DNA of 64,000 bases from Sphingomonas sp. Leaf20 (GTDB taxonomy: Bacteria > Pseudomonadota > Alphaproteobacteria > Sphingomonadales > Sphingomonadaceae), in the NCBI RefSeq assembly GCF_001421535.1, contig NZ_LMKN01000009.1:1695-65694 (forward strand), written 5' to 3'. The notes under the pieces are model-generated. The model did no database searches. It was not told where the DNA came from and worked only from the letters and a program-made list of their open reading frames with translations. Made by a program: the position numbers and the translations under genes. Below, piece by piece: positions 21,486-35,398 of the stretch. How positions within the stretch are numbered: position 1 is the first letter of the stretch; every line of letters begins with the position of its first letter.

Positions 21486-24400
21486 TCAGGAGGTAACGGC
21501 GACGACATTGTCGTCGCCGTTACGGTCCACATACATGTTGTACGGATCGATCCCGGCAAAGGCCGGCTTTTTCCGTGTCACGATACGGATGGTCTGTACG
21601 CCCGAGACGATCGGTCGACGGACCTTCGCGATCACGTCCGTCGCTGCGAAGCTACCGAAGCCGGGGCGCTGGTCGAAAACGCCGACGTCGATCGTGTCGG
21701 AAAGCGGCGATGCCTTTTCGACGCCGGTGCCGTTGGCGTAGAACTTTGCGGCGTCGATCGTCAGTACGGTTTCGAAACGCCCGTCGGGCAGCTTGCGCGT
21801 GACCGCACTGGTCGTTTTCAGATCGTACACCGTGATGCGATCCAGCAGGTCGAGCACGAGCTGACGTTCGCCGGGCGTGCGGGCCAGCGACAGGAAGCCC
21901 GCTACCAGATCGAGCGAACGCGGATAGGGCTTTCCCTTGAAGCGATAGCGGGCGAGCAGACCGCGCAGCATGGCGTTGACGCGCGCTTCTCCCAGACGGT
22001 CCTGCAACAGGTACATGACCAGCGAACCCTTGCTGTAATGGATATACCCCTGGTTCTCGACCCGATCGAGCGGTACTTCCTCCACCACGTCGCCGCCGCG
22101 CGACCGCAGGTAGCTGTCGAGTTCGTATTTCAGGAAACGACGGATCTTGTCCTCGCCATATTGGTGCTTCATCACCATCAGCGCGGAATATTGCGCCATG
22201 GTCTCGACCAGCATCGACCCGCCCTGCATGTCGGCGCCGACCAGCTGATGGCCCCAATATTGATGCCCCAGTTCGTGCGCGGTGACGTAGCTGACATAGT
22301 CGATCTTGTCGGGATCGCGCGCGTCGGCGACGAAGCCGATGCGTTCTGAATAGGGGATCGTGCCTGCGAACGCCTGCGCGTAGCTTGCATAGCCCGGAGA
22401 TTCGAGAATGCGCGCATAGTCGAATTGATAAGGTCCGAAATTCGCGCGGTAATAGGCGAGCGAGCGCTGCATCGCGTCGAGCATGCGGTCGACGTTGAAC
22501 GCATGGTGCGGGTCGTAGAACACCGTCAGATGCGTGCCGTCGACGGTCCGCGATCGTTCGGCATAGGCGGCGGACTGGACGGAGAAGAAGGCGAGGATCG
22601 GCGCGGTCGATACGAACCTCGCGGTTCTGCGTCCCCCCGCGGTCGTGTCGGCAACCTTGCGGCCCGGCGCCACCGGGACCTGGCCGGCGATCGTCGAGAC
22701 GGTGATGTCGGAGCGGACCCACGGCGCATTGTTGATCAGGTTGCGCGCCTGCGCCGAACGGTCCTCCAGTTTGGCAGGGCGCAGCTCCGGCGTGAGGCCG
22801 TATTTACGCCGCTTCGCGCGGTCCTGCAGAAGGCCGCTCTGGCGCATGCCGATCTGCGGCGCGAATTCGTCGTTCTGCAGGAACGTCCCGTTGCCCACGA
22901 CGCGCGTGTCGTCGTTGTTGGCGACCAGCCCACGCTGCCACCGCGTCGCCTGGAACGCCATGGTGCCGCGTGCGCCGGGTGCGAGCGGCGTCGCGAACCG
23001 GTAGATGCGGTAGTGAAGATCGCGGTCGTCCATCACCAGTCGCGCGCCGGGAATGACGATTTTGCCCAGCTGCGTCTGGTCGTCCATCAGCCGGACGTGC
23101 AGGTCGGACAGGGGGGCGCCGGTATCGTTGACGAAGGCATAGGTGCCGCTCGACTCCATCCGACGCTGATCGGGATAGAGCGCGACGTCGAGGCGCATGT
23201 CGGTGACCGACGGCTGTTTCAGCGTGGCGTATCGGAGATATTTCTTCTCATATTGAGCCAGCCGGGCCTCGCCATCCTGCGTGGTGCGATAACGGTTGAT
23301 GACGTTCATGTCGTGATACAGATACGCACCGCTCGCCGCCGTCGCGAACAGCGCTCCGGCCAGTACGACACCGGGCGTTCCGAGTAACCGGCGAGGTAGC
23401 TGGGCCAGACGCACGCGGAGCCGGGTCTCCGTGCCGCGCCGCCAGAGCAGGTGCGCGACGACGCACAATGCCAGCGCGACCGAGCCCCAGTACATCCTGA
23501 GCCACCATGCGCGCGGTCCGCCGATTTGCGCCCCGTTCATGTCCGACAGCTGCACCGTGCCGGTGCTGCCATATTGATAGAGCGGGTGTTCGAAGCCCAT
23601 GTTGGTCAGCGTGATCGTGCCGACGAGATAGACGACCATGATCGCCCATCCGACATATTTGTTGGGGCTGAGCGCCTGTACCACGACCGCCAGGATCGCG
23701 AGGATGACCGCGTCCGCCGTCATCGGCAGCACCCACCAGGCGAGATACTGACCAAGCGCGAGGTCGGTCTGGCCGCGTGCGAGCTGGACGACGCACGCGG
23801 TCAGCGCCGCCATCACCGCGGTCGCGAACAGGACGCCGGTGATCGCGAGCACCTTCGGCACCAGATAGGCCCAGTTGGGCAGCGAGGTTGCATCGACGAT
23901 CTCGTGCATGCCGCGTTCGCGGTCGCGCCAGACCAGCTCGCCCGAATAATAGATCGCGATGATCAGCGGGATGATGCTGAACGTCCCCTCCAGCGTGGCG
24001 ATCACGGCGAACGTCAGCTGGCGGATCGGCGCACCGAACATCTCGTTGGCGAACAGCATCCCTCCCAGCGTGTTGAACAACCCGATCAGCATCAACACGA
24101 CGAACGCCGGGCTGCGGAACACCAACGCCATCTCGAACCGGCAGCGCGCGGACATCCGCGTCCAGTTCGCTTCGGACGGTCTGGCAGCGGGCAAGCGATC
24201 GACCGTGAGCGGTGGGGTCGCGGCAAGCTTCGTCGTCGCGCGCTGCTGCTTGCGCAATCTGCGCTTGGACACGCCGCGTTCGGCAAACGAGAATCGTGCA
24301 TAGGCGACGGCCATCGCCACCAGCCCGACGCCGATCGTGATCACGCGGTTCCACAGCAGCACGCCGGCAAAGGCAGGCAGCCCGTTATTGGCCTCGCTCG

Positions 24401-25073
24401 CGGTCCAATAGCGCGTCGTGGTGGTGAGCGCGCCGATCCCGAACAGCTCGAAATAGCTTCCCGTCGCACGCCATTCCGGCTTGAAGCGCAGGATCGAGTT
24501 CAGCGCCAGATACAGCATCAGGAACACGACGACGCCGAGATAGGAATACATCATCGACCGCGTCATCGTCGCCACCGCGAAGAAGATCGCCGCCGTCAGG
24601 AAGACGTTGGGGAGTGCCAGCAGGAAATACGCATAGGCGAAGTCCTGCAGCCGGTTCGGCCCAAGCGTCTCCTGATCGACCCACGGCATCAGCGAGCCAA
24701 GCCAGATTGCCAGCGGGATCGCGGCGAACGCCAGCGCCGCCGCGGCGAATGCGCCGAGGAAGCGCGCCATCAGATAGTCGAACTTGGCGACGCGGGTCGA
24801 TCGCACCATCGGTCCGAACCCGCTCTCGTCGTCGCGAACGATCACGTTCGCGACGAACGCGGTCGTCACGAACATGAAGAAGATCGACATGATCTGGTGG
24901 ACCTGCGCCACCGCCATCGGTGCATTCTTGTGGATGTTGGCGCCGCTGCCGATCTTGATCTGGTCGATCGTCATCGACCCGAAGGTCAGCAGGAAGAACA
25001 GGATCGCGACCGTCCAGAAGACCGGGTTGCGCAGTTGATAGCGAAGCTCGAAGCGGGCGATCTGGCCGAACAT
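21486..25073 (-). CDS. ABC-2-type permease fused to M1 (gluzincin) metallopeptidase
   Basis: One 1195-residue protein. The first 270 residues and residues about 310-590 are two membrane modules with the helix pattern of ABC-2 permeases (for example FWTVAILFFLLTFG and, in the second, FSIIPLIIAIYYSGELVWRD with a charged RDRERGMHEI loop). The last 570 residues form a soluble M1-like region with the zinc site HELGH (about 931-935) and the distant Glu in VETMA 18 residues on. Such permease-peptidase fusions are a known bacterial family, but their substrates are unclear. The ATP-binding partner lies 5 nt upstream in the same operon, so peptide or protein handling coupled to ATP use is the likely role. 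Its last codons form a long palindrome. Confidence 0.88.
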   Translation of the reverse strand: MFGQIARFELRYQLRNPVFWTVAILFFLLTFGSMTIDQIKIGSGANIHKNAPMAVAQVHQIMSIFFMFVTTAFVANVIVRDDESGFGPMVRSTRVAKFDYLMARFLGAFAAAALAFAAIPLAIWLGSLMPWVDQETLGPNRLQDFAYAYFLLALPNVFLTAAIFFAVATMTRSMMYSYLGVVVFLMLYLALNSILRFKPEWRATGSYFELFGIGALTTTTRYWTASEANNGLPAFAGVLLWNRVITIGVGLVAMAVAYARFSFAERGVSKRRLRKQQRATTKLAATPPLTVDRLPAARPSEANWTRMSARCRFEMALVFRSPAFVVLMLIGLFNTLGGMLFANEMFGAPIRQLTFAVIATLEGTFSIIPLIIAIYYSGELVWRDRERGMHEIVDATSLPNWAYLVPKVLAITGVLFATAVMAALTACVVQLARGQTDLALGQYLAWWVLPMTADAVILAILAVVVQALSPNKYVGWAIMVVYLVGTITLTNMGFEHPLYQYGSTGTVQLSDMNGAQIGGPRAWWLRMYWGSVALALCVVAHLLWRRGTETRLRVRLAQLPRRLLGTPGVVLAGALFATAASGAYLYHDMNVINRYRTTQDGEARLAQYEKKYLRYATLKQPSVTDMRLDVALYPDQRRMESSGTYAFVNDTGAPLSDLHVRLMDDQTQLGKIVIPGARLVMDDRDLHYRIYRFATPLAPGARGTMAFQATRWQRGLVANNDDTRVVGNGTFLQNDEFAPQIGMRQSGLLQDRAKRRKYGLTPELRPAKLEDRSAQARNLINNAPWVRSDITVSTIAGQVPVAPGRKVADTTAGGRRTARFVSTAPILAFFSVQSAAYAERSRTVDGTHLTVFYDPHHAFNVDRMLDAMQRSLAYYRANFGPYQFDYARILESPGYASYAQAFAGTIPYSERIGFVADARDPDKIDYVSYVTAHELGHQYWGHQLVGADMQGGSMLVETMAQYSALMVMKHQYGEDKIRRFLKYELDSYLRSRGGDVVEEVPLDRVENQGYIHYSKGSLVMYLLQDRLGEARVNAMLRGLLARYRFKGKPYPRSLDLVAGFLSLARTPGERQLVLDLLDRITVYDLKTTSAVTRKLPDGRFETVLTIDAAKFYANGTGVEKASPLSDTIDVGVFDQRPGFGSFAATDVIAKVRRPIVSGVQTIRIVTRKKPAFAGIDPYNMYVDRNGDDNVVAVTS
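21493..21523. repeat. 31-bp palindrome at the 3' end of the permease-peptidase gene
   Basis: GTAACGGCGACGACA (21493-21507) is repeated inverted at 21509-21523 around a single T. The 15-bp perfect arms lie in the last codons (GDDNVVAV). On the mRNA this folds into a stem of about 14 bp, probably a transcription end or 3' stability signal; no U tract follows. Confidence 0.6.
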
Positions 25074-25078
25074 GGCGC

Positions 25079-25990
25079 TCAGGCCGCGATGGCAGGGGAG
25101 GGGGTCTTTGCCGCTGGTACGCGCCGCGACCGCGCGAGGGTCGAGAAATATACGTCTTCCAGACCACCCCGCGCGGCGGTGAAGCCGGCGCCCGGATCCT
25201 CGGGGGACAGGATGTGGATGATCGTCCGACCGGCAAACAGCCGCGTCGAGATCACCTCGTACCGCAGGCGGCTTTCGTCGAGTTCGTCGCGTCCGATCGT
25301 CTTTGCCCAGACGTTGCCGCGGGTGCGTTCGATCAGCTCGAGCGGTGCGCCCTCAAGCTGGATCCGCCCCCCCGCCAGGACCGCCATGCGCGGGCACAGG
25401 TCGGCGACGTCCTCGACGATATGCGTCGACAGGATCACGACGACGTTCTCGCCGATCTCGGCCAGCAAATTGAGGAAACGGTTGCGCTCCTCCGGGTCAA
25501 GGCCTGCGGTCGGTTCGTCGACGATGATCAGCGCGGGGTTGCCGATCAGCGCCTGCGCGATACCGAAGCGTTGCCGCATGCCGCCCGAAAACCCCGCGAT
25601 CGCCTTCTTGCGGACGCTCCAGAGGTTGGTCTGGTTGAGCAGCGTCTCGACCGTTTCCTTGCGCTCGCGAGCCGAGGCGATGCCTTTCAGCACAGCCATG
25701 TGATCGAGCATGTCATAGGCGGATACCCGCGGGTACACGCCGAAATCCTGCGGCAGGTAACCCAGCGTTTCGCGCAAAGCCTCGGGATTGGCGATCACGT
25801 CGATCGTCCCGAACCGGATCGTGCCGGCGGTCGGCGTCTGCAACGTGGCGATCGTCCGCATCAGCGTCGACTTGCCCGCGCCGTTGGGCCCGAGCAGCCC
25901 GAACATCCCGTTGGGCACGCTAAGCGTCACATCGTCGAGCGCCCGCGTGCCATTGGCATACACATGCGTGACATTGGTAAGTTCGAGCAT
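25079..25990 (-). CDS. ABC transporter ATP-binding protein
   Basis: A 303-residue ATPase with all motifs: Walker A LGPNGAGKST (residues about 34-43), Q-loop LGYLPQDFGVYP, signature FSGGMRQR (about 135), Walker B IIVDEP (about 158) followed by TAGLDP, and the switch His in STHIVED. The C-terminal extension of about 80 residues after GGRIQLEG is typical of ABC-2 exporters. The gene lies 5 nt upstream of the permease-peptidase fusion, with which it must pair since that protein lacks an ATPase. The start ATG has GGGGGA ahead of it. The operon runs left from a gene-poor gap. Confidence 0.93.
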   Translation of the reverse strand: MLELTNVTHVYANGTRALDDVTLSVPNGMFGLLGPNGAGKSTLMRTIATLQTPTAGTIRFGTIDVIANPEALRETLGYLPQDFGVYPRVSAYDMLDHMAVLKGIASARERKETVETLLNQTNLWSVRKKAIAGFSGGMRQRFGIAQALIGNPALIIVDEPTAGLDPEERNRFLNLLAEIGENVVVILSTHIVEDVADLCPRMAVLAGGRIQLEGAPLELIERTRGNVWAKTIGRDELDESRLRYEVISTRLFAGRTIIHILSPEDPGAGFTAARGGLEDVYFSTLARSRRVPAAKTPSPAIAA

Positions 25991-28163: not shown

Positions 28164-29567
28164 TCATCGGACAAGTCGCAAGGCGTCCCGATCTGCGGTA
28201 GCGGCGGCCAGTTCGGCACGCGCGGATGCGATCCGCGCCTGCGCGTCGACGAGGCGGACGCGTGCGTCGGTGGCGGTTTCCTCGCGTTGATTGACCAGAA
28301 AGAAATCGGCGGATCCGAGTTCGAAGCGCCGGCGCTCGGCGGCCGCGAGACGGTCGGCGAGTTGACGCTCTTCGTCGGCAATGGCGGCAAGCCGTTCGGC
28401 TGCGCCGACTGCGATGACGATGCCCTGGACCTCGACGCTGATCTGGTCACGCAGAAAGCGGCTGCGCTGGCCGAGCGCGTCGATCTCGGCGCGCGCCTCG
28501 GCGACGCGGCCCTTGGCGGCGCGGTTCTGCAGCGGCACGCTGAACCGGAAACCGACCGCCGCCTCGAGCGGCGTCCGGTTGGGGCCGCCCAGGCCGACCG
28601 GCCCGACATCCTTGCCGACCTCGCCGCGAAGATCGAGCCGCGGCGACAGGTCGTTCTCCGCCAGGATCAGCCGCGACGTCGCCTGATCGATCCGCGCGAG
28701 CACCGCACGATAGTCGGGACGCTCGACCGGCCCCGCCCGGATCGCAGCGACGGGAAGCGCGGCGAGCGCGCCGGCATCCGCCGGCATGCGATCGTCCGAC
28801 ACCGTCACCGGCGCACCCGCCTCGTCGCGCAGATAGAGCGACAGCGCATTGGCGGCACCGGCGACATCCTGCTCGGCGCGCACCGCCAGCGCACGACGCC
28901 GGACGAGGTTCTGGTCGTTCTCGACGAGCAGGATCTCGGGCCGTGCGCCGAGCGTCACCAGCCGGCCGATCGCGCTGCGACGCCGCTCCGCAAGGTTCAG
29001 CAGGTCGCGATAGGCGCGCAGCCGCAGACCCGCCGCGACCCAGGACTGATAGGCATCGACCGCGCGCCGCTGCACGCCGACCGCGACCATCGCCGCCTCG
29101 AACCGCGCGACGTCGATCTCGGTAGCGGCGATGGTCCGTCGCGTGCGGCGCTCGTCGATCACCCGGTCGCGCAGCAACGCGAACAGCGCGCCGACCTTCG
29201 CTTCGCCGAGCTTGTTGGTATAGGCCTGGTCCTCATAGACCGGGAACGTCCCGCGCGACGCACGGTAGCCGCCATAGACATAGCCGCCATTGCCGGTGAG
29301 CGGGCGCGTCGCGCGCCCCTCGACCATGGTGCCGTCATAATAGCCCGCGACGCGCGACTTCGAGTCGACGTCGAACACGGTGTCGAATGCGCCCTCAGCG
29401 GACAGCGCGCGGCCATCCGCCTGCCGCACTTTGGCGAGCGCCTCGACGATCTGTGGCGCGGACCGCGCGGACGAACGCAGCACCTCGTCGAGCGTCAGCG
29501 GCGAGCTTTGCGCGGACGCGGCGGCGGGTGCCATCAGGACGAGCAGGAAAGAGATGACCCGCGTCAT
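28164..29567 (-). CDS. TolC-family outer membrane efflux protein
   Basis: A 467-residue outer-membrane channel component. The signal peptide (MTRVISFLLVLMAPAAASAQ) starts at an ATG that overlaps the HlyD stop (ATGA); the frame is open far upstream but that part is a shadow of hlyD. The mature protein shows the two-repeat OEP helical pattern with long Ala/Arg/Glu helices (ADRLAAAERRRFELGSADF, and an NLAERRRSAIGRLVTLG counterpart in the first half). It would form the exit duct for the HlyD and ABC partners encoded immediately upstream. Confidence 0.88.
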   Translation of the reverse strand: MTRVISFLLVLMAPAAASAQSSPLTLDEVLRSSARSAPQIVEALAKVRQADGRALSAEGAFDTVFDVDSKSRVAGYYDGTMVEGRATRPLTGNGGYVYGGYRASRGTFPVYEDQAYTNKLGEAKVGALFALLRDRVIDERRTRRTIAATEIDVARFEAAMVAVGVQRRAVDAYQSWVAAGLRLRAYRDLLNLAERRRSAIGRLVTLGARPEILLVENDQNLVRRRALAVRAEQDVAGAANALSLYLRDEAGAPVTVSDDRMPADAGALAALPVAAIRAGPVERPDYRAVLARIDQATSRLILAENDLSPRLDLRGEVGKDVGPVGLGGPNRTPLEAAVGFRFSVPLQNRAAKGRVAEARAEIDALGQRSRFLRDQISVEVQGIVIAVGAAERLAAIADEERQLADRLAAAERRRFELGSADFFLVNQREETATDARVRLVDAQARIASARAELAAATADRDALRLVR

Positions 29568-30655
29568 TTCTTGGCGTCCCCGTCCTTGCCGGTTTCGTCC
29601 GCGCTTGGCTTCGCCGGCCGCTTGGGCTGCGCCTTGGCGGATGCCGCGCCGCGCTGGCCGAATTCGAGCGGGAAGTCGTTGAGCTGCCGCCACAGTTCGT
29701 AGCCGACAAGGACGGTTTCGCCCTGCACCCAGCCGCGGACCTTGCCGCCCGGGCGGACGAAGGTGGCGGTCGGCCAGCCCGGCTTGCCCGGCCGCGGTTC
29801 GACCAGGATGCGGAACGTGCCGTCGGGGGCGGCATTGGGATCGATCATCCGGACGCGCGCGTCGAACATGCCTTGCGCGACCGACGGCCAGCCGCTGAAC
29901 TGGATCGCGGGCCAGCCCTCGAACTCGAGCCGCACCGGGCGACCGGGACGGATCAGCGGCATGTCGCGGCCATCGACGTAGAGCTCGACCGCGCGCTCGA
30001 CGCGCTCGGGCGCGATCACCGCCAGCACCGTACCGGGCGAGACCAGCGCGCTGCCGCTTGCCGCATTCAGCTGCTGGACTCGGCCGTCGCGCGGCGCACG
30101 CACCAGCTGGGCCGACTGGCGGTTGAGCTGGATGTCGATCCGGTTGAGTTTCGCGCGCGCCTCGGCAAGCTTGGCGCCCGCGTCGGCGACCTTGATCTGC
30201 GTCTGCTCGTAATCGCGACGGGCGGCGAGTCCTTCGGCGAGCAACTGCCCGGTGCGCGCGACGTCGATTCCGGCGACCGCACGGCTTTGCTGGATCGCGG
30301 CGATCTCCGCCTGCACCTGCGCGCGCTCGGCCCCTAGCCGCGAGAGCAGGTCGGGATCGAGATCGACGACGCGCGCGATAGGATCGCCGCGCGCGACGTG
30401 CTGGCCGTCCTGGACGTACCAGCGCTCGACCTTGCCCGGCACCAGCGCGGTCACCTGCTGCTGGCGGTCGCCGGGATCGAGCGCGATAACCTGCCCTGTG
30501 CCGCTGGCAGTCTGCACCCAGGGGACCAGCGCCATGATCGCCGCGGCGATCGCGATGCCCAGCATGAGCATCCACGCCACCGCCGATGCCACCCGTGGTG
30601 CCCGCATCGCGGCGAGCGTCTGGAAATGCGCGAGGCGATCGGGCTTATACGGCAT
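29564..30655 (-). CDS. HlyD-type membrane fusion protein
   Basis: A 363-residue periplasmic adaptor with one membrane segment (residues about 25-46, AWMLMLGIAIAAAIMALV). After it come the lipoyl-like strand PGKVERWYVQDGQHVARGDPI, a coiled-coil hairpin (about 100-175) and the second lipoyl half with RAPRDGRVQQL. The C-terminus is a charged Lys/Ala tail ending GDAKK. The ATG lies inside the end of the ABC gene (11-nt overlap), and the stop overlaps the TolC start, so the three are tightly coupled. It should bridge the inner-membrane ABC protein and TolC. Confidence 0.9.
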   Translation of the reverse strand: MPYKPDRLAHFQTLAAMRAPRVASAVAWMLMLGIAIAAAIMALVPWVQTASGTGQVIALDPGDRQQQVTALVPGKVERWYVQDGQHVARGDPIARVVDLDPDLLSRLGAERAQVQAEIAAIQQSRAVAGIDVARTGQLLAEGLAARRDYEQTQIKVADAGAKLAEARAKLNRIDIQLNRQSAQLVRAPRDGRVQQLNAASGSALVSPGTVLAVIAPERVERAVELYVDGRDMPLIRPGRPVRLEFEGWPAIQFSGWPSVAQGMFDARVRMIDPNAAPDGTFRILVEPRPGKPGWPTATFVRPGGKVRGWVQGETVLVGYELWRQLNDFPLEFGQRGAASAKAQPKRPAKPSADETGKDGDAKK

Positions 30656-32330
30656 CGCCGGCTCCCTGCTGGGTCGCGGCGATCAGCGCCGCGCAACTGT
30701 CGAAGCGGCGTTGCCGATCGGGTTCGAGATGGAACCAGCCGTCGAGCACGATATCCTCGGGGCGACCGGTGCACAGCAGGACCGTCGTACCCGCCGCCTT
30801 GAGCTGGCGCAGCACCTCGGCGAGGCGGCTGGTCGGGATCAGATCGTAGAGCTGCGACAACATCAGCACGTGCGGGCGCACCAGCAGCGCATTGGCGAGC
30901 TTCAGCGCCATGACCTCGCCGATCGACAGCGGATAGCCCGACGCAGCCAGCGGCGTGTCGAGGCCGTGCGGCAACCCGGCGACGCGGTCGCGCAAGCCGA
31001 CCGTCTCGAGCGCGTCGAGCATCACCGTGGAGGTCGATCCGGCCGCGGCAAGCGTCAGATATTCGCGGATCGTGACTTCGACGATGCTCGGACGGTCGAG
31101 CACCATCACCTCGGATCGCAGCAGATACATGTCGAACGTCGCCATGTCGGCGCCGCCGACCAGGACCAGCCCGCGCTCGGGAACGACATGGCGCTTGAGT
31201 ACCATCGCCAGCAGCCGCTCGGCCCCGTCGTCCGCGCGCGTGACGAGCTGTTCGCCCGCCGCGAGCGCGAAATCGAAGCGCGCGCCCTCCGTCACGACAC
31301 GGTCGAGCCGCACCGCCCCATCGCCTGGTGACTGCCCTACCGCGGTGACCGTGCTCTCCTGCGGGATCGCGTAGAGCAGCGACAATTCCTCCGCGCTCGC
31401 CACCAGATCGTAGAGCGTATCGAGATACCAGCCGAGCTGCGACACGCCGTAGAAGACGCCGCTGAGGATCAGCTCGGCCGCGACCAACTGTCCGATCGAC
31501 AATTCACCGCTGAGGATTAGGTTTCCACCGAGTGCGAGCAGCGCCGCGCTGGCGAAGGCGTAGAGGAGCAGGAAGGCGACCGTCTGCGTGAAGCTGTAAC
31601 GGAAATAGCGCTGGTGGCGCTCGACATAAGTGGCGGTGACGGCTTCCGACCGGTCCATCGCGAAATCGAAATGGCGGCTCGATTTGTAGAAGCCGTTCGA
31701 CGCGCCGACGCTTTCAAGCCAGCGCGCGGCCTCGTGCTTGGCGTGGCTCAGCGCGACCGCCGAGCGGATCGAGCCGCGCGACCAGATCAGCCAGATCGCG
31801 AGAATGACGAGCAGGAGAATTGCGTTGAAGGCGAGGAAGAAGGGATGGTAGAAGCTGGTGACGATCAGCCCCACCGCCGATTGCAGGATGATCGTGAACG
31901 CGCCGATGACGAGGCTCGGCACGGCCTTCTGCACGACGACGAGGTCGAAATAGCGATTGAACAGGTCGCCGCGATTCTGGTCGGCGAAGAACGGGTTCTG
32001 CGCATGCACCGCGCGGACGGTGATCTCGGCGACAATGCGCGCGAACAGCCGTCGCTCGAACAGCGCCATCATCCAGAACCGCATGGCGCTCAGCCCCGCC
32101 ACGATCAGCAACAGCCCGAGCAAAAGGCCAGCCAGCGTCCATAACGGCGCGGGCATCGCGGTGTTGGCGACGCTGTTGATCAGCAGCTGGACCGAGATGG
32201 GGGTGGCGAGCGACAACAGGCTGATCGCCACGCCGTACACCATCGCGAGACGGACATAGGGCGTGTCGGGCCCGACGATCTCGGTCAGCCATCCAGCTGC
32301 TGAACGCCATCCGATATGTGCGCCTGCCAT
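30645..32330 (-). CDS. ABC exporter-like protein with degenerate ATPase domain
   Basis: A 561-residue protein with the six-helix exporter membrane domain (residues about 25-300) and a C-terminal domain that aligns by eye with an ABC ATPase but lacks its motifs. At the Walker A position (about 360-372) it reads TRADDGAERLL, without the GKS/T. The signature is LSIGE instead of LSGGQ (about 467), Walker B is LMLSQLYD without Asp-Glu (about 491), and the H-loop is LLCTGRPED without His (about 519). The fold spacing is kept. So ATP hydrolysis by this protein is not expected. GAGGAA precedes the ATG at 32330; a TTG at 32372 is a poorer choice. It heads the HlyD-TolC operon. It may act as a non-hydrolysing scaffold, or need another ATPase. 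Confidence 0.85.
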   Translation of the reverse strand: MAGAHIGWRSAAGWLTEIVGPDTPYVRLAMVYGVAISLLSLATPISVQLLINSVANTAMPAPLWTLAGLLLGLLLIVAGLSAMRFWMMALFERRLFARIVAEITVRAVHAQNPFFADQNRGDLFNRYFDLVVVQKAVPSLVIGAFTIILQSAVGLIVTSFYHPFFLAFNAILLLVILAIWLIWSRGSIRSAVALSHAKHEAARWLESVGASNGFYKSSRHFDFAMDRSEAVTATYVERHQRYFRYSFTQTVAFLLLYAFASAALLALGGNLILSGELSIGQLVAAELILSGVFYGVSQLGWYLDTLYDLVASAEELSLLYAIPQESTVTAVGQSPGDGAVRLDRVVTEGARFDFALAAGEQLVTRADDGAERLLAMVLKRHVVPERGLVLVGGADMATFDMYLLRSEVMVLDRPSIVEVTIREYLTLAAAGSTSTVMLDALETVGLRDRVAGLPHGLDTPLAASGYPLSIGEVMALKLANALLVRPHVLMLSQLYDLIPTSRLAEVLRQLKAAGTTVLLCTGRPEDIVLDGWFHLEPDRQRRFDSCAALIAATQQGAGDAV

Positions 32331-32418: not shown

Positions 32419-33318
32419 CTATGCAGAAACCACGCGTAGCAAGTCTGCGATCACGCCATAGGCCGGCGCGCGACCGGCGCCCTGACGCCATAGCAAGCCG
32501 ATGTCGCGGTAATAGCGGCTGCCTTTGATCTTGCGGACCACCACGTCGTCACCCTCGCGGATTTCCTGCCGAACATAGAGTTCGGGCAGGAGCGCCAACC
32601 CCATGCCCATGCCCGCCATCTGCCGGATCGCGTCGAGGCTGGTCCCCTCATAGTCGCGCAGCACGTTCGCCCCGACATCGACCGCGATCGCCGCCACCTG
32701 TTCGGCAAGCCGATATTCGGGCAGCAGCGTCAGCAGGTTGGTGCCGCGCAGGTCGGAGGGCGCGATGATTGCCTTGGCTTTCAACGGGTGGTCGGATGCC
32801 ATCGCGACATATAGCGGTTCGCGAAACAGCCGCTCGCTGTGAAACGCGCCGCCGGACACGGGCAATTGTGCCAGGATCAGATCATGGACGCCGGTGCCAA
32901 GTCCGGACGCGAGCGCGGTCGGCAGGCCTTCGCGGACATGGACGCGGAGCGTCGGGTGCTCGCGGTGCAACCGGGCAACCAGTGCCGGCAGGAGATAGGC
33001 GCCGAGCGTCGGCGATACCCCGAGCCGGATCGTGCCGATCAAGGGATCGGCCGATGTCGCCCGGAAATCCTCGAGATCGGCGACGTCGAGCAGGATGCGC
33101 CGTGCCCGGTCGAGCAGATCGCGTCCCAGCGGGGTAAGGATCGCGGGGCCTCCGCGCTCGAACAAGGCTGCGCCGATGACGGTTTCGAGCGCACGGATCT
33201 GTTGCGAGAGCGACGGCTGGGACACCCCCATCCGTTCGGCCGCCCGCGTGAAGCTGCCGGCTTCGGCCAGCGCGACGAAATAGCTGAGGTGACGAATCGT
33301 GGTTTTGGGGAAAGGCAT
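32419..33318 (-). CDS. LysR family regulator
   Basis: A 299-residue LysR-type regulator. The winged HTH is at residues 7-65 (FVALAEAGSFTRAAERMGV, then SQPSLSQQIRALE), followed by the substrate-binding domain. In sequence style it is close to the OxyR branch (LLPALVARLHREHP, GMGMGLALLPELYV) but has no Cys pair, so peroxide sensing by disulfide is ruled out. The ATG at 33318 gives a normal N-terminus; the open frame upstream is not coding. It lies 88 nt upstream of the ABC-HlyD-TolC operon in the same direction and is a candidate regulator of it. The stop is TAG. Confidence 0.88.
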   Translation of the reverse strand: MPFPKTTIRHLSYFVALAEAGSFTRAAERMGVSQPSLSQQIRALETVIGAALFERGGPAILTPLGRDLLDRARRILLDVADLEDFRATSADPLIGTIRLGVSPTLGAYLLPALVARLHREHPTLRVHVREGLPTALASGLGTGVHDLILAQLPVSGGAFHSERLFREPLYVAMASDHPLKAKAIIAPSDLRGTNLLTLLPEYRLAEQVAAIAVDVGANVLRDYEGTSLDAIRQMAGMGMGLALLPELYVRQEIREGDDVVVRKIKGSRYYRDIGLLWRQGAGRAPAYGVIADLLRVVSA

Positions 33319-34063: not shown

Positions 34064-35398
34064 ATGCCCGGCCTTTTCAATCGTGTGTTACCCTCCAAAC
34101 GCTGGACGCCGTCGCGGTACAGGGCGCTGCTACGTGCGCGCGGGCCGCGATCGACGCAGTTTCGCACGCGGGGTGCGATCCTTGCGGGGGCGATCCTGAT
34201 CGGGATCGTCGCGACGCTGTTTGCCGAGGCGGCCGATTGGGCGGGCGAGGTTTTTAGCGACTTTGCAAGGACCTGGCACTGGATGCCGCTGGTCACGACG
34301 CCGCTGACGTTCATGGGGCTGGTCTGGCTGACGCGTCGCTATGCGCCATACGCGCGCGGATCCGGAATCCCCCAGGTGATCGCGGCGCAAGCCAGTCCGA
34401 ACGACGCCACGGGCACGCTGATTTCGATCCGGACGGTGGTGGCCAAGGCGGTGCTGACGATCGGCGCGGTACTGGGTGGCGCATCGGTCGGGCGGGAAGG
34501 CCCGACGGTCCAGCTGGCAGCGGCCGTCATGGGGTTCACGCACCGTCTCGTCCGCGTGCCGTTGCGAGGCGGGGTCCTTATCGCCGGCGGTGCGGCGGGC
34601 GTCGCGGCGGCGTTCAACACGCCGCTCGCCGGGCTGCTGTTCGCGATCGAGGAGCTCGCATCCGCCTATGAGCAGAGGGTGACGCTGCTCGTCCTCGCGG
34701 CGATCGTGATCGCGGGGATGGTCGCGCAGTCGGTGCAGGGCGACTATATCTATTTCGGTGCGATCGGCGCGCATATGCCGCTGCTGTCCGCGCTGATCGT
34801 CGCGCCGGTTGCCGGCATCGCGGGTGGCATGACCGGTGGGCTGTTCTCGCGCATTCTGCTGGCGATGGCGGTCAGCCGCAACCGCGTGACGGAATGGACG
34901 CGCGCGCATCCCGTCACGTTCGCGGGGATCTGCGGGGGTGTCGTCGCGGTGCTCGGCGTCGTGACCGGGCTGACATGGGGAACCGGCTATGCCCCGGCGC
35001 GCGCGATGATCGTCGGCGTCGATGCGCCGCTCTGGTTCGGGCCGGCCAAGCTGGTCGCCACCGCCGCGACCGCGATCGCGGGCCTGTCGGGCGGGATCTT
35101 CGCGCCGTCGCTCGCCGTCGGCGCGGGCGTCGGCAATCTGCTGCGCGAGATCTTCCCCGGCGAGCCTGCCAGCGCGATCGTGATCCTGGGCATGGTCGCC
35201 TATTTCGCGGGCGTCGTCCGCGCGCCGCTCACCGCGGTGATCATCCTGTCGGAGACGACCGCGAGCCGCGGCCTGATGCTGCCGATGTTTGCGACCGCGT
35301 TCATCGCCGATGCGGCCAGCCAGTGGGTATGCCGCGAGAAGCTGTACCATGGTCTCTCGAAGACCTTCGCCATGACGGAGACGACCCGATCCACCTGA
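34064..35398 (+). CDS. ClC family chloride channel / H+ antiporter
   Basis: A 444-residue inner-membrane protein of the voltage-gated chloride channel family. The three selectivity-filter motifs are present: GSGIPQV (about 99-105), GREGPTVQ (about 145-152, with the gating Glu) and GGIFAPSLAVGAG (about 345). The helical AFNTPLAG segment is also typical. No C-terminal CBS domain is present. Cl-/H+ exchange or chloride conduction is expected. A DUF389 membrane protein follows after only 14 nt, so the two are likely one transcript. No clear ribosome site is visible. Confidence 0.92.
   Translation: MPGLFNRVLPSKRWTPSRYRALLRARGPRSTQFRTRGAILAGAILIGIVATLFAEAADWAGEVFSDFARTWHWMPLVTTPLTFMGLVWLTRRYAPYARGSGIPQVIAAQASPNDATGTLISIRTVVAKAVLTIGAVLGGASVGREGPTVQLAAAVMGFTHRLVRVPLRGGVLIAGGAAGVAAAFNTPLAGLLFAIEELASAYEQRVTLLVLAAIVIAGMVAQSVQGDYIYFGAIGAHMPLLSALIVAPVAGIAGGMTGGLFSRILLAMAVSRNRVTEWTRAHPVTFAGICGGVVAVLGVVTGLTWGTGYAPARAMIVGVDAPLWFGPAKLVATAATAIAGLSGGIFAPSLAVGAGVGNLLREIFPGEPASAIVILGMVAYFAGVVRAPLTAVIILSETTASRGLMLPMFATAFIADAASQWVCREKLYHGLSKTFAMTETTRST

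Follow-up and report, generated by a model that had tools for sequence, protein, structure and literature searches.

Can the fold of an ATP-binding cassette (ABC) exporter still serve export once its ATPase motifs are gone? ABC exporters are taken as ATP-driven, and the question is raised by a three-gene unit in a 64,000-nucleotide stretch of the 4.31 Mb genome of Sphingomonas sp. Leaf20 (GCF_001421535.1, NZ_LMKN01000009.1, positions 1,695-65,694, forward strand), which we call the window. The unit encodes an ABC-exporter-like inner-membrane protein, a HlyD-type periplasmic adaptor and a TolC-type outer-membrane channel. In the ABC-like protein, the Walker A, Q-loop, signature, Walker B, D-loop and H-loop of the nucleotide-binding domain (NBD) are all six non-canonical. 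Sequence comparison leaves us nearly certain that the unit specifies a tripartite exporter whose inner-membrane ABC-fold protein is a conserved pseudo-ATPase. This exporter probably performs no nucleotide-driven transport. To the reading as a whole, a nucleotide-free tripartite exporter that would run on ion-motive force through a glutamate in transmembrane segment 6 (TM6), we give a probability of roughly 0.5.

An ABC-like protein without canonical ATPase motifs

The products of the unit, and the two domains of the ABC-like protein, are the following.

30645..32330, minus strand: ABC-exporter-like inner-membrane protein, putative pseudo-ATPase, 561 aa (open reading frame (ORF), Pfam, NCBIfam, motif alignment)
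31341..32330, minus strand: membrane domain, residues 1-330 (Pfam PF00664)
30648..31340, minus strand: degenerate NBD, residues 331-561 (predicted ABC ATPase fold)
29564..30655, minus strand: HlyD-type periplasmic adaptor, 363 aa (Pfam HlyD_3; nearest NCBIfam subfamily RND_mfp, below cut-off)
28164..29567, minus strand: TolC-type outer-membrane channel (Pfam OEP)

The ABC-like ORF occupies exactly 30645-32330 on the minus strand, with an ATG start and no internal stops. At its own stop it overlaps the HlyD gene by 11 bp, and the HlyD gene overlaps the TolC gene by 4 bp (ATGA), which bears out the intact and tightly coupled frame described in the first-pass annotation of this DNA. The membrane domain is recognized by Pfam ABC_membrane (PF00664) at 31 bits, above the cut-off of 28, and the NBD reaches only 18.9 bits with ABC_tran (PF00005), below the cut-off of 25. 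Adaptor and channel have clear matches to HlyD_3 and OEP, and RND_mfp scores 84.6 bits against the adaptor for a cut-off of 94.9.

Aligning the ABC-like protein with canonical exporters locates the remains of each motif.

31209..31244, minus strand: former Walker A, residues 363-374, GEQLVTRADDGAERLLA, no Gly-Lys-Ser/Thr
31062..31118, minus strand: former Q-loop region, residues 405-423, LDRPS, Gln gone
30900..30938, minus strand: former signature, residues 465-477, LSIGE, not LSGGQ
30834..30875, minus strand: former Walker B and D-loop, residues 486-499, VLMLSQ...DLIP
30756..30788, minus strand: former H-loop, residues 515-525, CTGRPED, His gone (TGRP)

The Walker B Asp and the catalytic Glu are both replaced (LSQ), the D-loop reads DLIP, which is non-canonical, and the P-loop region is one residue shorter in the subgroup that contains the window protein.

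What remains of the domain itself? A structure prediction of the NBD, which the first-pass annotation had proposed, returns an ABC ATPase fold. The ColabFold model was built from 29 sequences (the window protein and 28 relatives, all at least 66% identical to it), and its pLDDT in blocks of ten over residues 331-550 is 73-93. The modelled NBD superposes on the NBD of ComA (3vx4) with Z 23.4 and a root-mean-square deviation of 2.6 over 221 residues, and on that of TAP1 (2ixe) with Z 23.3 and a deviation of 2.8 over 229 residues. The NBD is predicted, then, to keep the ABC ATPase fold without its chemistry. Pfam ABC_membrane, the predicted fold and the motif alignment agree with the earlier description of a protein that keeps membrane domain and NBD spacing and has lost the catalytic motifs.

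How far does the loss extend?

Close relatives were collected by scanning species genomes with six peptide patterns, two of them inside the NBD and outside its motifs, a scan that reaches close relatives only. It returned 47 loci: 29 in Xanthomonas, 1 in Pseudoxanthomonas and 17 in Sphingomonas/Novosphingobium, the nearest being Sphingomonas (S. aurantiaca, 96%). The ORF is intact in 45 of the 47; the gene is interrupted in L047 and L050, the representatives of X. axonopodis and X. phaseoli. A canonical Walker A, signature or Walker B Asp occurs in none of the 45.

Wider searches used whole-protein profiles built from degenerate members or from a mixed set of sequences. The unit is patchy in Sphingomonadaceae, with 27 of 249 genomes at E 1e-30, one sphingomonad copy being split (G036:C1:531440-533100). 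It is found in 11 of 398 Pseudomonadota genomes (E 1e-35), and in 12 of 147 genomes of a family in another class of Pseudomonadota (f40). In the class of G594, 17 of 274 genomes pass E 1e-45, of which 11 carry a family member by inspection and the remainder canonical exporters.

Motif features were counted on one alignment of 94 family rows (92 distinct), which excludes the interrupted L047 and L050 and the split copy L062, and 7 canonical rows. The family rows divide into a main group of 85 (83 distinct), meaning one side of a tree branch and not a proven clade, and a side group of 9, which extends to Bacteroidota.

Main group, 85 rows: Walker A 0, signature 0, Walker B Asp 0, Glu at the catalytic position 2, H-loop His 1
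Side group, 9 rows: Walker A 4, signature 0, Walker B Asp 4, Glu at the catalytic position 2, H-loop His 1
Canonical exporters, 7 rows: all five features in 7

Close homologues with canonical motifs, which would have spoken against the first-pass reading, were not found: the main group holds three zeros, for Walker A, signature and Walker B Asp. Two side-group rows, L105 and L106, have one in-frame stop each, and the single H-loop His of the side group sits in a row with such a stop (in L083 a His sits one column off). Walker A is kept by L083 and L102 (Pseudomonadota), L084 (Persicobacter) and L087 (Riemerella). The most canonical member, L102, keeps Walker A and the Walker B Asp-Glu, reads LSSSQ at the signature and has lost the H-loop His. 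No member with all motifs, and none with a canonical signature, was found among the 94 family rows.

Did the motifs fail all at once, as first proposed? In the window protein all are indeed non-canonical, but across the family the losses look stepwise, with Walker A still present in 4 of 9 side-group rows and the signature in 0 of 9. A tree was made from membrane-domain columns alone, with 46 family rows and 6 canonical rows (L022, L036, L113 and L003-L006 left out). Family and canonical rows separate with support 98/98. A further branch (100/100) has on one side all four rows that keep Walker A along with L088, L104, L105, L106 and L107, which have lost it. On the assumption that Walker A is never regained, this would mean at least 4 losses: in L088, in L104/L105, in L106/L107 and in the rest. 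On this parsimony reading the motifs would have been lost stepwise in evolution, with relatives showing intermediate states.

Selection or decay?

To ask about selection we use Nei-Gojobori omega over 15 chosen pairs; because sequences recur among them, the pairs are not independent. The NBD omega is 0.066-0.479, which places 15 of 15 pairs under purifying selection, and that of the membrane domain is 0.018-0.242; the former motif columns lie below the whole-NBD value in 15 of 15 pairs. Decay, a sequencing error or a single aberrant copy could point to the damaged copies for support: the interrupted L047 and L050, the split G036 copy and the in-frame stops in L105 and L106. Against this stand the 45 intact loci of 47, the purifying selection, and the finding of the same loss in several families, in genomes that were sequenced separately. 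We give decay virtually no weight, and as a candidate explanation decay or assembly error was rejected on the intact ORFs, the omega range and the family-wide motif loss. That the protein is a selected form and not a decaying one, as first suggested, is well supported by this selection, by the intact loci and by the constraint on most former motif regions.

Which parts of the NBD are constrained? Over 39 main-group sequences (effective number 20.7), the membrane domain is better conserved on average than the NBD, with a mean entropy of 1.37 bits vs 2.02. Within the NBD, entropy is 1.33 at the former signature, 1.43 at Walker B/D-loop, 1.56 at the Q-loop, 1.60 at the H-loop and 2.21 over the other columns. 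The former Walker A stands at 2.40, which exceeds the NBD background and makes it the most variable of the former motifs. When the motif mask was shifted circularly, 0 of 203 shifts gave an entropy difference as low as the observed one. Conservation of the degenerate motifs across homologues, which the first-pass annotation had proposed to check, holds in that the degeneracy is common to the main group, and does not hold for the Walker A region, which drifts.

With Walker A drifting and the other former motif regions held in a new form, we infer that nucleotide use was lost while the dimer and coupling interfaces stay: drift hits the nucleotide-gripping loop, and the held regions correspond to those through which the NBD of a canonical transporter contacts its partner NBD or the membrane domain. 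From the constraint on most former motif regions but not on Walker A, we propose that the NBDs no longer use nucleotide and would serve as a clamp, structural or regulatory, on the membrane domains.

The same constraint could be turned to another purpose. The NBD, having kept its predicted ABC fold and constrained remnants of the signature, D-loop, Q-loop and H-loop regions, might bind or slowly hydrolyse nucleotide through non-canonical residues. The P-loop region, however, varies more than any other former motif and is one residue shorter in the window subgroup, and we regard this unorthodox use of nucleotide as very unlikely.

The unit and its surroundings

If the ABC-like protein works, does it work with its neighbours? 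We propose that an ABC-fold inner-membrane dimer, the HlyD-type adaptor and the TolC-type channel would form one exporter, and the gene order is consistent with it. Of the downstream proteins, 41 of 42 match HlyD_3 and 38 of 40 match OEP. Where a match fails, for both genes of L126 and the TolC gene of L115, the ORF had been wrongly chosen: the true genes sit in other frames (53% and 48% identical in L126, 69% for the L115 TolC), and the wrong ORFs remain in the adaptor and channel alignments. Among 55 loci, 54 have an HlyD cluster and 48 a TolC cluster, both encoded on the same strand as the ABC-like gene and, by median position, behind it.

In the adaptor alignment the adaptor is well conserved. 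Its C-terminal consensus over 42 rows (that of L126 a wrong ORF) reads FEGWPAIQFSGWP ... GYELWRQLNxFP, with several positions nearly invariant.

Upstream of the unit in the window, on the same strand and 88 bp from the ABC-like gene, lies a regulator gene.

32419..33318, minus strand: LysR-type regulator, 299 aa counted from the conserved start (best NCBIfam match OxyR, 168.5 bits vs a cut-off of 329)

A LysR-like gene recurs in 19 of the 55 loci. The unit's neighbourhoods vary, and no recurring cargo gene appears in them: beyond ABC, HlyD, TolC and LysR, no gene family is present in at least 4 of the 55, the other recurrent ORFs being, as judged by position, overlapping or antisense frames of the unit genes. 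On the S. hankookensis plasmid another LysR protein, 45% identical and divergent, stands beside the unit (L085:6920-7828). In the window, an ORF that by eye resembles a ClC-type chloride channel (34064-35398, plus strand) is divergent from the LysR-exporter unit.

Units are found on the S. hankookensis plasmid, on N. aromaticivorans pNL2, in Riemerella and in Aureibacter. All four products of the window are 74-86% identical to those of Xanthomonas loci L013, L017, L022, L036 and L041, which fits block transfer between classes, and by these sequences the operon appears to move as a block. As for carriage by phages, a search of a phage collection gave no match at E 1e-20.

These observations bear on a protein that might not be energized at all. 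A substrate-gated conduit, or a docking platform for HlyD and TolC, would let cargo move downhill or by another transporter, and several facts suit it: every motor motif is gone, the membrane domain and the adaptor are well conserved, and a D-loop change in TAP made that pump a nucleotide-gated facilitator, according to passages of PMC7756269. However, comparison of the genera shows no other transporter gene that recurs next to the unit, and an operon that is kept, and that apparently moves between classes as a block, suggests useful work by itself. We consider such a gate or scaffold unlikely.

Is there a partner ATPase?

A further possibility is that ATP is hydrolysed by a different chain. 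The window protein would then form a heterodimer with a canonical ABC half-exporter encoded elsewhere. Exporters with a degenerate site are common (PMC7756269), and in the heterodimers treated in passages of PMC7756269 and PMC6529423 the degenerate site still binds ATP, hydrolysis being left to the other site. Like TM287/288, TmrAB and TAP, the family studied here has a degenerate NBD kept under selection.

The search for a partner, which the first-pass annotation had called for, used a sequence pattern loose enough to find the window's own DrrA-like ATPase. Of the 29 Xanthomonas loci, 28 have a canonical exporter directly upstream of LysR, and in the 29th the sequence extends only ~1.2 kb upstream. 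The exporter of L013 is MsbA-related (TIGR02204), with its end ~1.1 kb ahead of the ABC-like gene. Such a neighbour is present in 0 of the 18 other loci (17 Sphingomonas/Novosphingobium and Pseudoxanthomonas), the one pattern match, in L046, being by its sequence not an ABC protein. In 41 further loci a real-looking ABC ATPase (226 aa) is near the unit in L137 only, and the matches in L125 and L148 look by eye like other P-loop proteins.

The window's DrrA-like ATPase lies ~2.2 kb beyond the TolC gene, and because its nearest relatives, L007-L012, have no pattern match we do not count it in the unit. Its gene (25079-25990, minus strand), with a canonical Walker A and an SGG signature, adjoins that of a 1195-aa protein (21486-25073, minus strand) whose N-terminal part is rich in membrane segments and is followed by a HELGHQYW metallopeptidase motif, as read by eye.

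The window genome does hold one MsbA-related exporter gene, ~210 kb away on the same contig. At E 1e-200, 241 of 249 Sphingomonadaceae genomes have a match to TIGR02204, 181 of them above its cut-off, and a gene so nearly universal makes co-occurrence with the unit uninformative. There is also a structural point. A composite site takes Walker A from one subunit and the signature from the other; unlike the degenerate-site heterodimers, the window chain has lost both together, and so no dimer that includes it holds a complete ATP site. We find the heterodimer distinctly unlikely.

What could drive transport?

If nucleotide is set aside, we need another source of energy, and one residue of the membrane domain stands out.

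31473..31475, minus strand: Glu286 codon, TM6 (family alignment)

All 94 family rows (92 distinct), the 85 of the main group among them, have Glu at this position, and the 7 canonical exporters have Asn, Gln or Ser. It aligns with Phe335 of human ABCB1, a residue that lines the drug-binding cavity. Two other polar residues in hydrophobic stretches are conserved as well, His162 (39 of 39 main-group and 8 of 9 side-group rows) and Gln150 (39 of 39 and 9 of 9).

Ion coupling of ABC-fold proteins has been described. In passages of PMC6155054 and PMC2704374, Glu314 in TM6 of LmrA lies in an interior cavity and is required for proton-coupled transport, and LmrA without its NBD transports without ATP; MsbA transport is proton-coupled and needs a proton gradient, according to PMC4979069. 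Given a family-wide TM6 Glu and the ion coupling of LmrA and MsbA, we judge ion-motive force the likeliest energy source, and by this analogy we put coupling to it at somewhat under even odds. Ion-motive force would drive export, and Glu286, placed in the translocation pathway, would be the coupling residue, as reported for LmrA Glu314. A more far-reaching version, to which we give less than even odds, is that of a widespread family turned secondary-active, in which the NBD pair would be a permanently nucleotide-free clamp, ion-motive force would export cargo across both membranes by way of the TM6 Glu, and the side group would preserve intermediates of the switch.

Several points weigh against a nucleotide-free exporter run on ion-motive force. 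The four side-group members with a Walker A have Glu286 too, which means that its origin did not coincide with the loss of the ATPase, and a conserved TM6 Glu may equally bind substrate or form a salt bridge. Its likeness to LmrA Glu314 is at the level of a TM6 carboxylate, and LmrA and MsbA use nucleotide in the cell, neither being a natural pseudo-ATPase. That Glu286 would face the cavity rests on the ABCB1 alignment and the role of Phe335; the model of the membrane part is poor, with pLDDT at or below 60 in every ten-residue block up to residue 330. The outgroup-rooted tree, moreover, has its root among main-group (f40) rows, with open forks and the side group nested within the main group; taken literally, this means more losses, or regains, and fits stepwise loss poorly. 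We hold that root unreliable because of the very long outgroup branches, which the program flagged, and the open forks, and we make no claim on the order of the deepest splits. Finally, the support is computational throughout: the loss as a family trait, the predicted fold, the purifying selection and the conserved unit.

Comparison with known systems

Type I secretion exporters (HlyB/PrtD/LssB) have the same gene set of an inner-membrane ABC fold, an adaptor and an outer-membrane channel. They differ from the window protein in that its scores with their subfamilies are far below the cut-offs, its catalytic motifs are gone and it has no N-terminal peptidase-like domain. The nearest NCBIfam models are type I secretion ATPases, TIGR01846 with 89.7 bits (cut-off 725.55) and TIGR03375 with 86.2 (cut-off 693.1); a third subfamily of the HlyB/LssB/PrtD set scores 42.7 for a cut-off of 510.15. 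The matches to the first two begin at profile positions 144 and 136, which are residues 29 and 11 of the ABC-like protein, and this leaves no room for the peptidase-like domain.

SbmA/BacA is proton-driven, has an ABC-exporter-like membrane fold without an NBD, and imports peptides. It offers a precedent for an ABC-exporter-type membrane fold that works without an ATPase; unlike it, the pseudo-ATPase family has retained an NBD and is accompanied by adaptor and channel, and the window protein has no match to Pfam SbmA_BacA at E up to 1.

LmrA and MsbA are not known to have a dedicated operon of adaptor and channel, and their NBDs work, unlike that of the window protein. The half-exporter fold is shared with both, and LmrA likewise has a TM6 carboxylate and, in the passages cited above, a membrane domain that transports on its own with ion gradients.

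One system already in the literature may belong here. Passages of PMC9505733 describe 'HlyBD2-OMP2' of Blastomonas fulva as an ABC-type tripartite pump with hlyB of 1659 bp, hlyD2 of 1053 bp and omp2 of 1503 bp, sizes that resemble those of the sphingomonad three-gene unit. Judged by these gene sizes it probably belongs to the pseudo-ATPase family; the word 'degenerate' is absent from the main text of that paper, and the passages do not mention lost motifs. In open PMC, with subscription papers and preprints outside the scope, we found no account of the ABC-like family as a pseudo-ATPase. As a form of ABC-fold tripartite exporter, it fails the defining ATPase-motif test of ABC exporters while its fold and gene set are theirs.

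What the family would mean

For members of this family that carry it, the annotation 'ABC transporter ATP-binding protein' is probably a misdescription. Relatives with partial degeneration provide a natural series for asking which motif can go first. Secondary transport by the ABC fold has hitherto been argued, in the papers on LmrA and MsbA that we cite, from ATP-competent proteins or from engineered truncation. If our reading is true, a natural exporter family without a complete ATP site would test the ABC membrane fold as a secondary transporter.

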